Source: Acidilobus sp. 7A
GTDB lineage: Archaea > Thermoproteota > Thermoprotei_A > Sulfolobales > Acidilobaceae
Assembly: GCF_003431325.1 (NCBI RefSeq)
Contig: NZ_CP010515.1
Location: forward strand, 1,054,001 to 1,118,000
Direction of reading: 5' to 3'
DNA: 64,000 nucleotides
Shown here: positions 1,148-56,113 of the stretch, one piece after another
Layout of the letters: each line of letters opens with the position of its first letter
Numbering within the stretch: position 1 is the stretch's first letter
Translations under genes and position numbers: made by a program
Notes under the pieces: generated by a model
What the model saw: only the letters and a program-made list of their open reading frames with translations
Database searches by the model: none
What the model was told of the DNA's origin: nothing

Positions 1148-1487
1148 CTGACCTCCTCCCCGCCCTGAAGGGCGAGGGCTCCCTTAGGGCGGCTCATAGG
1201 TTCGCGGCTTACCGCCCTCACCTTCATCACATCATGGCTGGCGGGCGCATATGCGCCCACCCCGCTCCGCTCGTCCAGCGGCAGGCCGCGGGCCGGGCCT
1301 TCGGCCCTTTACCCCTACCCCTCGCTGGGAGTTGCCTCCTCCCCTCCCGCTCCCAGGGGCTCGGGGATATGTGGGGCCCTGTTGGGGCATCCCCTTGCGG
1401 GGACACTATTTGTTCACGCAACTTTAAGTGCTCAGATGTTTTATGCCTTACCCGCCCCTTCAGGGGCGAGGCTTGCCTCTCACTTTT
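1148..1487 (-). mobile_element. Non-autonomous IS200/IS605-like element, copy A
   Basis: This 340-bp segment matches the reverse complement of 42363-42703 over its whole length with few differences. In element orientation (minus strand) it follows TGAC. It begins AAAAGTGAGAGGCAAGCCTC, with hairpins GAGGC-AA-GCCTC and GCCCCTGAAGGGGC, and ends in GCCCTTCAGGGC then GGGGAGGAGGTCAG. Subterminal hairpins without inverted-repeat ends or target duplication fit IS200/IS605 and TnpB-type elements. It encodes no transposase. It fills most of the gap between gins23 and mcm. The family assignment is inferred from end structure only. Confidence 0.65.
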
Positions 1488-40551: not shown

Positions 40552-41127
40552 ATGAAATACACGAGGCTTGCTGGCTACTCGGTCTTCGTTGGAGCGGCCC
40601 AGTTCCTCATACTCATGATAGTGGCTGAGGCAATATACCCCGGCTACAGTGTCTCCCAGAACTACATAAGCGACCTGGGCAACCCAAGGCTGGCGCCCTC
40701 AACGCCTCACGCGACCATATTCAACACATCTATAATACTGCTTGGGCTCCTCCTAATAATCGGCGGCTCCATCCTTGCGTACAAGGAGAGGGGAGTTACC
40801 GGTAGGCTTCTAGGCGTCCTGGTGGCCATCTCAGGCTTGGGGGCCGCCGGCGTCGGCTTCTTCCCTGAGGGCTCCCCCTATGACCTGCACGTCATTTCAT
40901 CCCTCATAGTGTTCCTCTTCGCCTCCCTGGCCTCTTACCCGGCGTCCCTCTACAGGGGCCACAGGAGCCCGCTGTGGGGGGCCCTGGGCACTATAGGCCT
41001 AGTGGCGCTGGCCCTATACATAGCCAAAGACTACATGAGCCTCGGCTGGGGCGGCATGGAGAGGATGATAGTCTACCCCAACCTTATGTGGGCCCTCGGG
41101 TTCTCAGGGTCTCTCATGACGAACTGA
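40552..41127 (+). CDS. DUF998-like membrane protein
   Basis: About 191 residues from the ATG at 40552 (MKYTRLAGYSVFVG); the frame is open to 40507. Six membrane helices are visible. The segment YPGYSVSQNYISDLGNP after helix 1 and FFPEGSPYDLHVISSLIVFL in the middle match the DUF998 family. Function is unknown. TATA-like TTTTTATC at 40510 and a five-codon open frame ending in an ATGA overlap with the start are visible upstream. Confidence 0.8.
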   Translation: MKYTRLAGYSVFVGAAQFLILMIVAEAIYPGYSVSQNYISDLGNPRLAPSTPHATIFNTSIILLGLLLIIGGSILAYKERGVTGRLLGVLVAISGLGAAGVGFFPEGSPYDLHVISSLIVFLFASLASYPASLYRGHRSPLWGALGTIGLVALALYIAKDYMSLGWGGMERMIVYPNLMWALGFSGSLMTN

Positions 41128-41173
41128 CGTTAGAAGCCCACCATATTAAGCCCGCCTCTCGCAGAGGCTGCAC

Positions 41174-41550
41174 ATGAATGGGAGTAAAAGATTGAGAAGT
41201 AAAAGGGCACCGTTTTTCACGGTAGGCATGGATGACGTTAAAGGAGTCCTTTTACTTCAGAGCTTCGACAGAATCATAGGCGTCGCCAAGAATGAGGAGC
41301 TCCTAATGGAGATGAAGAGGCTCTCGGCCGAGGGATCCAAAGGCCCTCCAGTGCCACGTGGAGCAGGGCCACATGAGGGCATGACTCAGCTGCATAGGCA
41401 GGGACAGCCCGGCCTCCCTGCTGGAGGGCGTTAAGGGCGCCGTGAGCCTGCTTGACGAGGCCGTGACTGCCTGGGACCCTGGGCTACCCAACATGCGGCC
41501 TCGAGTTCAGGTGCATCTACCCGCGGGGCAGGGCGCTAAGCCCTAGACGG
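41174..41550 (+). pseudogene. Decayed gene of unknown family
   Basis: A protein-like start (MDDVKGVLLLQSFDRIIGVA, then KNEELLMEMKRLSAEG) is followed by frame changes. A second frame gives ALQCHVEQGHMRA, then ASLLEGVKGAVSLLDEAV and TAWDPGLPNM, and a third LEFRCIYPRGRALSP. The segments read as one helical protein broken by two or three indels. I do not recognise the family. It lies in a gene-poor stretch with other decayed material. Confidence 0.45.
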
Positions 41551-41651
41551 TACCCAGGGCCAAGAGGGCACCAGCGCTGTATAACCTATAGGCCTTCCTC
41601 CATTTAGAAACATTTTTAGCCTAGGAGGGCACGTATAATGTTAGTGAGAGC

Positions 41652-41963
41652 TTGCCCTCAGCGTCACTTGACGAGGCCACAAGAGCTTCGCTAGAGCTAG
41701 CTCGTCTGGCAATGATAGACTCAAGGCTGGCCTCAAGGGAGGGGCTGAGCGACGCAGCCAGGGCCCTTCAGGCGCTCTCTGAAAACGCCATGGTTATAGC
41801 TAAGTACCTGACGAGCGGCAGCATAAGCGCCGTGATCTCAAGGCTGGAGAGCAGTGACATGAGGGAGCTGCTGGCCTACGCCTCGCCAAGGACAGCCGAG
41901 GCCTATGAGAGTCTAAGGTACTACCTCACTTACCTCCAGGGGCTGCGCAGCAGCTCGCGTTAA
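41652..41963 (+). CDS. Small helical hypothetical protein
   Basis: The protein has 103 residues, all predicted helix, rich in Ala, Ser, Leu and Arg (LDEATRASLELARLAMIDSR, then LSDAARALQALSENAMVIAK). There are no cysteines and no known motif. The TTG start follows GTGAGAGC. Codon use matches neighbouring genes. I do not recognise it. Confidence 0.5.
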   Translation: MPSASLDEATRASLELARLAMIDSRLASREGLSDAARALQALSENAMVIAKYLTSGSISAVISRLESSDMRELLAYASPRTAEAYESLRYYLTYLQGLRSSSR

Positions 41964-42362
41964 AGCCCCCCTCTAAAATCCTTTCCCACTGTACTGCGAC
42001 ACACAAAACTTTTAGCCCAGGTACCAGGTATCTGGTGCGCGCTTGCCAGAGGGCACGGACATAATAAGGGCTCAGTATTACAATGACCCATTCCAGGCTG
42101 TTGTTCCACCCGTGTACCTGAGCGCTGCCTTCGGCTACGTAAGCGACGAGCTGGCAGTTAAGGACGACAGGGGGCGCGTTGTCAGGTACTCAAGGGAGGT
42201 TAACCCAACCCTCAGGCCCCTGGAGAGGGCTGTGGCCTCGCTCGAGGGCGCCGATGACGCCTTAGCCTTCAACTCCGGCATGAGCGCCATATCAACGGCT
42301 GTCCTGGCCCTTGCCAAGGGTGGCCTGAAGGTACTGATAACCATGGAGCTCTACAGTTTGAC

Positions 42363-42703
42363 AAAAGCGAGAGGCAAGCCTCGCCCCTGGAAGGGGTGGG
42401 GTAAGGCATAAAATTCCTGAGCACTTAAAGTTGCGTGAAACATAGTGTCCCCGCAAGGGGATGCCCCAATAGGGGCCCACATATCCCCGAGTCCCTGGGA
42501 CCCAGAGGATGGGGGCAACTCCCAGCGAGGGGTAGGGGTAAAGGGCCGAAGGCCCGGCCCGCGGCCTGCCGCTGGATGAGCGGAGCGGGGTGGGCGCGTA
42601 CCGCGCCCACTAGCCATGAGGTGATGAAGGTGAAAGCGATAAGCCGCAAACCAGTAAGCCGCCCTAAGGGAGCCCTTGCTCTTTAGGGCTGGGAGGAGGT
42701 CAG
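42363..42703 (+). mobile_element. Non-autonomous IS200/IS605-like element, copy B
   Basis: A 341-bp element inserted in the PLP gene, nearly identical to 1148-1487 in reverse. It follows TTTGAC and starts AAAAGCGAGAGGCAAGCCTC. It ends with CTCTTTAGGGC and GGGAGGAGGTCAG. A middle hairpin GGGCGCG-TAC-CGCGCCC replaces GGGCGCA-TA-TGCGCCC in copy A, a paired change that keeps the stem. TATA-like GCATAAAA and CTTAAAG lie near the left end. No transposase is encoded. Confidence 0.7.
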
Positions 42704-43502
42704 GAGGGTCTACCCGTCCACGGAGAGCCTCGTGGAGGCCCTCACGAGCTCTAAGTACGACCTGGCCTTCATGGAAGTCATGTCAAACCCAACCCTGAAG
42801 GTGATAGACGTCCGTGAGGTCACCCGCGCCGCCGCGGAGGCCGGCACGCAGCTTATAGTTGATAACACCTTCACTACGCCGCTGCTCGTGAAGCCCATTA
42901 AGGCTGGGGCCTCCGCCGTCGTGCACAGCAGCACGAAGTATCTAGCCGGTCACAATGACGTAACTGGCGGGGTCGTGGCGACCAGTAAGAGCCTGAGCGG
43001 GAGGCTGTTGGAGTGGAGGAGCAAGCTGGGCACGGTCCAGCAGCCCCTAGAGGCATACCTAGCCTACCGCGGCCTCAAGACACTGCCCCTCAGGCTTGAG
43101 AAGGAGAGCAGAACTGCCACGGCCCTAGCTGAGTTCCTGCACGACAACAGCAATGTTGTGCAGGTCCACTACCCTGGACTAAGCGACGACCCCTACCACC
43201 TCCTAGCGTCAAGGCTGTTCGAGAGGCCGCTCTACGGCGGCGTGCTCTCATTTAAGGTGAGGGGAGGAAGGTATGACACTATCAGGTTTGTCAGGGGCCT
43301 AAGGCTGGCCAGGGTGGCCCCAAGCCTCGGCGGCACAGAGACGCTCGTCACGCTGCCGGCCCTGACGGCGTCAAGCCACATGCAGCCCGAGGAGAGGAGG
43401 ACGCTTGGAATAGACGACTCCCTGATACGCATCTCCGTAGGCCTTGAGGACCCTGAGGACCTAGTGGAGGACTTTGCAAGGGCCCTCAGCTGCTCAGCTA
43501 GG

Positions 43503-43575
43503 AGCCGCCGCCGGGACTTGAACCCGGGACCTCTGCCTTACCAGGGCAGCGCTCTACCGGCTGAGCTACGGCGGC
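43503..43575 (-). tRNA. tRNA-Thr (anticodon GGT)
   Basis: Minus-strand cloverleaf: acceptor GCCGCCG/CGGCGGC, discriminator T, D stem GCTC/GAGC, anticodon arm CTGCC-CTGGTAA-GGCAG (anticodon GGT), T arm CCGGG-TTCAAGT-CCCGG. No intron is present. It lies antisense to the read-through end of the split PLP gene. Confidence 0.95.
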
Positions 43576-43737
43576 GCGGGCCCGTTCAGGGGGCCCAGAC
43601 TTTCCCTTGCTAAAGCTAGTTTTAACCCTTATGCCCGGTTGACGAGGTAGCAGCGCCGCTGACTCTTGTGCACGCGTCGTAGGGACCGGTACAAAGCCTT
43701 ATAAATGCACACCTAACATTAAGAACTCTAGGCGAGT

Positions 43738-44670
43738 GTGCACATGAGTGCTATTAGCTGGGTCAACTGGCTGCTCAACCCACCAGCCGGGCTGTCGCTA
43801 GGCATGATAATACTGATCTCCTACGTGCTCGGCCTCCTGCACGGGGCCACCCCGGACGAGCACACGTGGCCAATAACCTTCAGCTATGCAGTGGGCAGCT
43901 ACAGCACAAGGAGGGGCATGAAGGCCGGCTTCCTGTTCTCACTAGGCTTCACGCTTCAGAGGGCCCTGCTAACCACTCTGGGGTTCCTTGGATTGGCCTA
44001 CTTCTATCAGAAGTACAACCTGGATGGTCCAGTTTACATAGTTGTCGGCATAGTGATGGCCATAGCTGGCTCCTACGTGCTCAAGGGAAAGTACGTTCAC
44101 CTTGAGTTCGACAGGCTGCTGGGCAGCAGGACGCACTCGAAGGAGGCGGAGAGGAGGAGCATCTATGACCAGCTGAAGGACGTGCCCCTCAGGATGACAA
44201 TAGTGCACGGCCTCATCGCTGGCTTCGGGTTCGGGGCCTACGCCACGATCATAACCTTCATACTAGCGCCCAGGGTTGGCTCAATACTTTACGCCCCCCT
44301 GCCAGGCGTCATGTTTGGCCTTGGAACTATGACCATGCAGATAATATTCGGGGCCCTGTTCGCCAACATAGCTAGACTCAAGGGCCTCGGCGAGGGTGAC
44401 ATAAAGAAGCTGGGGGCTGCCACTGCAGGCAGGACCCTGTACTACGGCGGCATAGCGTTCGTGCTGATAGGCGCCCTCGTGGTCGCTATACCAGCTATTG
44501 ACAGCTTTGCGATAAGCACGGGCAACCCCATACCTAACCTTAACGCTATTGACATAGGGTTCCTGCTCGTGCTCATAGTGGTCGGAGGCATAGGAATAGC
44601 GAGCATTATAAAGTCCTACAGGGACATAAGGTCCTTGAAGTCCGCCGGACCCACTAAGACGGCCGCATAA
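43738..44670 (+). CDS. NicO/RcnA-like membrane transporter
   Basis: The protein has 310 residues with about seven or eight membrane helices. The first helix pair holds LGLLHGATPDEHTWPITFSY, which parallels the HxxxxD(E/H) metal-selectivity motif of nickel/cobalt permeases. A second HGLIAGFGFGAYATIITFIL follows in the other half, indicating an internal duplication. A cytoplasmic loop carries DRLLGSRTHSKEAERRS. Nickel or cobalt transport is inferred from this motif only. TATA-like CCTTATAAATG lies about 40 bases upstream. Confidence 0.7.
   Translation: MHMSAISWVNWLLNPPAGLSLGMIILISYVLGLLHGATPDEHTWPITFSYAVGSYSTRRGMKAGFLFSLGFTLQRALLTTLGFLGLAYFYQKYNLDGPVYIVVGIVMAIAGSYVLKGKYVHLEFDRLLGSRTHSKEAERRSIYDQLKDVPLRMTIVHGLIAGFGFGAYATIITFILAPRVGSILYAPLPGVMFGLGTMTMQIIFGALFANIARLKGLGEGDIKKLGAATAGRTLYYGGIAFVLIGALVVAIPAIDSFAISTGNPIPNLNAIDIGFLLVLIVVGGIGIASIIKSYRDIRSLKSAGPTKTAA

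Positions 44671-56069: not shown

Positions 56070-56113
<44 letters not shown>

Follow-up and report, generated by a model that had tools for sequence, protein, structure and literature searches.

Positions 42363-42703 (plus strand) of the window hold a 341-bp ORF-less element that is close to certain to be an IS200/IS605 MITE carrying the scaffold of a TnpB guide RNA. (The window is the whole 64,000-nucleotide stretch of DNA that we analyzed; it belongs to the single contig, C1, of a 1,539,049-bp genome, G000.) The original prediction was that the element carries a guide RNA like that of TnpB, and this interpretation is supported. It seems likelier than not to us that the element's lineage was selected as a guide that acts in trans, and it is doubtful that the window copy guides anything today.

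Layout, copies, and insertion sites

The reading frames of at least 80 amino acids within the element are 83 and 88 amino acids long and, by eye, are not transposases. There are eight full-length copies with mapped ends in the genome, so the recurrence of the element is not due to chance; as in MITEs and PATEs, a transposase gene is lacking and multiple copies are present. The other seven are 82-89% identical to the window copy, the full-length copies range from 336 to 343 bp, and there are partial copies too. One full-length copy, copy B, also lies in the window (1148-1487, minus strand; C1:1055148-1055487 of G000) and is 89% identical to the copy at 42363-42703.

On the plus strand, the window copy starts with a left-end hairpin, CCTCGCCCC..GGGGTGGGG (42379-42401); similar left ends occur in tnpB-linked and in ORF-less elements. 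Then come a first TATA-like box, GCATAAAA (42406-42413), which differs among copies; CTTAAAG (42424-42430), a possible TATA box; a shortened 5' RNA domain, GUGUCCCC-GCAA-GGGG-AUG-CCCCAAUAGGGG (42445-42475); and the putative guide-RNA scaffold of 225 nt (42479-42703). The scaffold includes the hairpin GGGCC-GAA-GGCCC (42543-42555), which is apparent in the sequence and in the consensus fold, the hairpin GUGGGCGCG-UAC-CGCGCCCAC (42590-42610), and a right-end hairpin with the tip ...GGGAGGAGGTCAG (42660-42703). The two boxes are at the positions that had been predicted, and so is the chain of hairpins: CCCCGCAAGGGG, GGGCCGAAGGCCC (42543-42555), and GGGCGCG-TAC-CGCGCCC (42592-42608). The predicted right end, ...GGAGGAGGTCAG at 42703, and the flank GAGGGTCTACCC from 42704 are also in the sequence. 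A paired change that keeps the stem had been proposed as well, and it is real: in the alignment, the 42363-42703 copy has G-UAC-C and copy B has A-UA-U, with an A-U pair where the window copy has G-C.

The second box is a plausible promoter for the ORF-less element, judging by its sequence and position. GAGCACTTAAAG is identical in seven of nine congeneric copies, which is a mild contrast because 60% of columns are invariant among these copies overall; the TTAAAG within it begins 21 nt before GTGTCCCC, at the GUGUCCCC of the 5' domain. Among 12 other ORF-less sequences, the full box is found 19-29 nt before the 5' domain in L112, L113, L114, L116, L118, and L125. L109 and L110 have a near match, and L108, L115, L117, and L121 have no box there.

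Directly to the left of the element is TTGAC (42358-42362), the insertion target or expected transposon-adjacent motif. As predicted, TGAC lies beside the target: it precedes seven of the eight full-length copies (as TTGAC in four of those), and TGGC precedes the other. The right tip is GTCAG in seven copies and GCCAG in one. For the sister copy at C1:74452, we found a vacant site in the congener G001, joined exactly at TTGAC^CCTCTCTATC. Of 60 bases compared in each flank, all match on the right side and 58 match on the left; a second, paralogous place in G001 is vacant likewise. Joining the flanks of this copy gives a reading frame of at least 987 nt, presumably an ATPase, given its GLRRTGKSS motif. 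The exact vacant site implies that insertion was precise and without target duplication, and that the motif and the 3' flank together are the vacant site. The flank is where a guide would be, which had also been predicted, and a MITE or PATE is expected to insert in just this way, with a short fixed motif on its 5' side and no duplication.

This match to an empty site is established for the C1:74452 copy; the flank of the window copy seems to be altered. The window copy interrupts a gene that we take to be cystathionine-gamma-synthase-like, from reading its protein (5' part, 42043-42362; 3' part, 42704-43499; both plus strand), and homologs in the congeners G001, G002, and G003 carry 16 more codons at the junction. 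The deletion could have either preceded or followed insertion, and the original target may have differed from the present flank. Just 3' of the interrupted gene is a tRNA gene (43503-43575, minus strand). The expected guide is GAGGGTCTACCCGTCCACGG (42704-42723). When we searched the genome with its first 16 nt, allowing up to two mismatches, there was one perfect site (its own locus) and six sites with two mismatches, versus three sites for the reversed control. Viral contigs searched with two exact patterns gave no match.

Genome comparison also identified a micro-element, roughly 38 bp long, that shares this right end (56075-56112, plus strand). Similar micro-elements are present at 14 places (among L152-L169) and at C1:64223. 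They usually consist of TTACA, then ACTGAAAG or a variant, a hairpin like CCTCGCCCTTTAGGGCGGGG, and then GAGGAGGTCAG. By sequence, they look like left and right ends fused at the common hairpin, as in the ends-only PATEs of 52 bp that are already known (PMC3119063, PMC7290912). Another locus, L012 (C1:256110-256247), is a deletion derivative in which bases 2-138 are joined to the right tip and most of the scaffold is gone.

The tnpB parent and the conserved fold

Bases 117-341 of the element recur, at 89% identity over 225 bases, as the 3' end of a larger element (about 1.54 kb; C1:67863-69403, minus strand). The larger element encodes a TnpB without internal stops, and its frame runs into the common part. 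TnpB is the family from which CRISPR-Cas12 came. The parent TnpB matches PF01385 (OrfB_IS605), PF07282 (the Cas12f1-like TNB domain), and NF040570 (NCBI's guided TnpB family), and it matches solved TnpB-type and Cas12f chains. So the TnpB gene that the original prediction had sought, with the same right end, is present in this genome, and the right end of the MITE is that of a tnpB element. At related tnpB loci, the RNA has the same fold and extends from within the 3' end of tnpB to the right end of the element, as expected of an omega RNA. The window copy is a stand-alone derivative of the tnpB-linked RNA. A small ORF upstream of tnpB in the parent element matches DUF7557; its matches to VapB-type antitoxins are below the cutoff.

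The same RNA part ends Sulfolobales elements that have both tnpA and tnpB, in virus SMV1 and in plasmid pHVE14 (ISSis2, found with L113). Near-terminal hairpins are also common to four elements of G116 (L097-L100) that hold tnpA and tnpB, as autonomous Y1 elements do. In the window's genome, there are 15 TNB-domain matches and two serine recombinases that exceed the cutoff, and the Y1 family gave no match. We considered a serine-recombinase (IS607) origin, given the two resolvase genes, and rejected it: insertion at TGAC, the hairpin ends, and the relatives ISSis2 and SMV1 indicate IS200/IS605. One serine recombinase gene (C1:694484-694876) adjoins the copy L004, near another TnpB.

To compare structures across genomes, we collected places whose match extends to the right end and covers at least 120 bases. 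There were 51, of which we dropped three (two at L019 and one at L067, as duplicates or another family). The remaining 48 sequences are 16 tnpB-linked, 30 ORF-less (from 12 genomes), and 2 remnants; L125 was moved out of the tnpB-linked class, and the status of L119, which is cut by a contig end, is unsure. Copies were fetched from the better search matches only and the query contained the scaffold, so elements without a scaffold were mostly missed. The left end was found in 24 of the 30 ORF-less sequences, using a pattern that itself requires TGAC.

We computed a consensus fold with 68 pairs from 15 tnpB-linked sequences of one joint alignment. The tree includes 45 of the 48 sequences (L102, L125, and L127 are out) and the structure test includes 42 (L098, L118, and L119 are also out). 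In the 25 ORF-less sequences tested (of 30), 90.2% of cells pair, versus 43.5-51.9% if the pairing is slid by 1-3 columns. Two-sided changes affect 27 of the 68 pairs, versus 10-18 if slid; these counts are inflated by the kinship of the sequences. Similarly, 92.9% of cells pair in the nine copies from the window's genus, and 8 pairs changed on both sides, versus 0-3 if slid. Covariation among further copies had been proposed as a check, and the fold passes it. In the scaffold tree, whose bootstrap had not converged, ORF-less and tnpB-linked sequences are intermixed, and well-supported branches force at least three changes, so loss of the ORF probably recurred.

The fold also relates to two Rfam families. 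The window copy has a full-length match to HgcC (RF00062) at 42590-42715 (plus strand), including 12 nt of flank, with 30.5 bits against a gathering score of 50, and a match to sot0042 (RF02656) with 20.1 bits against 88. Across the genome there are 38 matches to HgcC, including all eight full-length copies and, with stricter filters, not including the parent tnpB end. For seven of the 38, a TNB domain is encoded on the same strand no more than 600 bp upstream, against an expectation of 0.11 (none of 2,000 draws gave more than 2). These seven include the two loci that pass the gathering score, both at tnpB 3' ends. We rejected a match to HgcC as sufficient proof and consider it supportive only, because 18 of the 38 matches are right-end hairpins alone (17 of 20 examined in one set and one other) and the parent tnpB end is unmatched. 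Two other HgcC-like matches (L150 and L151, at C1:46312 and C1:1517893) have a different tip, GGGGAGG(G/A)TATGARCATTTATAAGCTC, and may represent the left end of a different IS family.

In Thermococcus kodakarensis, HgcC1-3 are transcribed from inside transposase genes, and HgcC4 and HgcC5 are without such an association (PMC4247193). HgcC ranks with the highly expressed RNAs in a study of Haloquadratum, which termed its function unknown (PMC5496347), and a genome paper from 2017 termed it unresolved (PMC5732400). Haloarchaeal sotRNAs are treated as omega RNAs (PMC12558985). No paper that joins HgcC and TnpB was among the matches listed by our literature search. A link between HgcC and the guide RNA of TnpB would give this Rfam family a function.

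A 5' domain within the zinc-finger codons of tnpB

Upstream of the scaffold, 14 of the 16 tnpB-linked sequences have the motif stem-A(A/G)G-hairpin-GUGU-stem, with a stem of 12 bp (once 11 bp). L079 and L085 deviate from this motif yet have a helix. This stem falls in the zinc-finger region of tnpB, where its two strands are the codons for CSLCG and those for CPR(T/I/M)G. The fourth cysteine of the zinc finger is absent from its usual place in all 18 of the distinct TnpBs of this subfamily that our pattern caught, including L170 (C1:68020-69189); in L078, there is a cysteine one residue earlier (CPCIG). The zinc-finger codons form a contiguous helix of 14-17 bp in 17 of the 18, and L106 has 8 bp. 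Five TnpBs of other subfamilies retain the fourth cysteine, and their best helices are 8-12 bp. In L111, the Cys codon of the first strand is TGT and the partner Arg is replaced by His, so changes in the protein can follow the RNA. The stem looks like a case in which an RNA has reshaped the protein whose codons contain it. Synonymous shuffles of the region reached the stem in 0-9 of 60 cases (31 of 60 for L106), which falls short of a strong rejection of the stem because the amino acids themselves dictate it; our argument for the stem rests on the missing cysteine and the paired changes. We also considered a circular permutation of the 5' domain and dropped it, as the tnpB loci share the order of Sulfolobales-type elements.

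The 5' motif is kept, with 7-12 bp, in 13 of the 30 ORF-less sequences, which comprise roughly eight different stems from six genomes (G002, G019, G076, G085, G092, and G126). It appeared in none of 2,999 shuffled left parts of ORF-less elements. These stems, for example GUGUAGAGGG/CCCUCUACAC and GGUGCAGGG/CCCUGCACC, are unlike zinc-finger coding sequence and are still paired, so part of the covariation should post-date the loss of the ORF. In 11 ORF-less sequences with the motif, strands from the same element pair over a mean of 9.3 bp, versus 4.3 bp for strands from different elements; 20 of 106 cross pairs, near-identical copies included, reach 8 bp. Selection on the RNA probably continued after the ORF was lost. 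The window's lineage has just the shortened domain, GUGU-CCCC-GCAA-GGGG and a second small hairpin, which we liken to the GUGU-CCC strand inside tnpB.

Competing explanations and known systems

The explanation that we favor, with some reservation, is that the element is a non-autonomous MITE or PATE of the IS200/IS605 type that lost tnpA and tnpB and kept its ends along with the omega RNA of TnpB, as a stand-alone unit with a TATA-like box. At the level of sequence, comparison establishes descent shared with the tnpB element, precise insertion at TTGAC with a flank that equals the vacant target (for the sister copy), and a conserved fold. The element would be moved by a Y1 TnpA supplied in trans and would be transcribed through its right end into the flank. 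The RNA would load a TnpB made elsewhere, and the loaded TnpB would cut vacant sites, the repair of which would restore the element by copying. A retention model for TnpB is set out in PMC11870625, and the archaeal SisTnpB1 (motif TTTAA) cuts DNA using its own omega RNA (PMC10640517). Lineages of elements would be selected for guiding in trans, with single copies, including the window's, now drifting.

Alternatively, the element may be an ordinary MITE or PATE formed by passive deletion, in which the guide-RNA part is left over from the tnpB element and is carried along owing to its nearness to the ends, its structure having been selected only in tnpB-linked ancestors. We rate this as a substantial possibility that falls short of probable, and several results fit it. 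Among the nine congeneric copies, 11 of 29 private substitutions break a pair, where chance predicts 10.2, which implies that single copies largely drift; 10 private changes keep a pair, where 6.6 are expected (276 of 5,000 draws reach 10). A TnpB close to the parent (E <= 1e-60) is present in 5 of the 12 genomes with ORF-less sequences (G000, G001, G071, G085, and G136) and none was found in the other 7, including G002, which is only 84% complete. Five of those 7 have a TNB domain over the cutoff, and G002 and G026 have none. G085 (L109, L110, and L111) contains tnpB as well as ORF-less copies. A Y1 match was found in 1 of the 12 genomes (G136) and in none of the other 11, the window's included. 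The interspersed tree, which makes repeated loss of the ORF likely, is also as expected from passive deletion, and a published PATE-like element likewise retains the right end (PMC7290912). However, ORF-less elements in six genomes have 5' stems with changes in both strands, away from the zinc-finger codons. The ends-only micro-elements of about 38 bp also suggest that the scaffold may be dispensable for mobility, although in-place deletion could also have produced them.

It is quite unlikely that the RNA was adopted by the host or regulates transposition, acting alone or repressing TnpA or TnpB instead of guiding cuts. Where a genome has no close TnpB, selection on the fold could point to a different partner, and the function of HgcC was termed unresolved (PMC5732400), but the copies are at different sites with different flanks, single copies drift, and the fold and both ends match those of tnpB elements. 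More improbable still is a spliced element like an IStron, whose excision from the mRNA would leave the host gene functional. The joined flanks of the window copy do remain in frame, but the enzyme lacks 16 codons, its frame is cut short by the element, and none of the Rfam matches in 41000-44000 is to an intron family.

A broader version of the guide-RNA explanation is tentative, and we consider it a little less probable than its denial: that hyperthermophilic archaea harbor transposons that are mobile guide-RNA genes, each with a box, a 5' domain, a scaffold, and a fresh guide at every landing. They would parasitize the TnpB of others, and their RNA would have evolved alone since the loss of the ORF. 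The same domain would have overridden the parent protein, at the cost of TnpB's fourth zinc cysteine, and HgcC RNAs would be of the same kind. If ORF-less elements do guide TnpB in trans, then one nuclease gene serves many self-renewing guides, each of which records its landing site. This would be an intermediate stage linking selfish transposons to CRISPR-like arrays, and there are Sulfolobales tractable enough for tests. Among the matches listed by our literature searches, we did not find ORF-less elements described as stand-alone TnpB guide units; they may already be known.

Among known elements, SMN1, a 320-bp MITE of Sulfolobus islandicus that is mobilized by ISC1733, is similar to the window element in its size, its archaeal host, and its use of a transposase in trans (PMC3718332). 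We compared them by description only, and that part of the description mentions no guide RNA. Two ORF-less sequences from G092 (L113 and L114) are 319 and 325 bp, near the length of SMN1. The PATEs of Haloquadratum (PMC3119063) and a PATE-like element of Halanaerobium (PMC7290912) resemble the window element in being ORF-less, with palindromic ends and no target duplication, and some of them keep the 3' end of tnpB and the right end. In contrast to our reading, the accounts of PATEs in those sources, so far as they go, do not include a guide-RNA unit with a box and a selected 5' domain. TnpB omega RNA or sotRNA (RF02656) and HgcC (RF00062) are like the window's RNA in their position at the 3' end of tnpB and in ending in the flank, although the window copy scores below both gathering thresholds. 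ISSis2 of pHVE14 and the IS200/605 element of SMV1 have the same RNA part and right end (82.1% identity to L113 and 80.3% identity to the window element, respectively), but they contain tnpA and tnpB, whereas the window element is gene-free. Finally, stand-alone omega RNAs that act in trans are known for IscB: like the window element, these are guide-RNA loci without a nuclease gene in cis, but the nuclease is IscB instead of TnpB.
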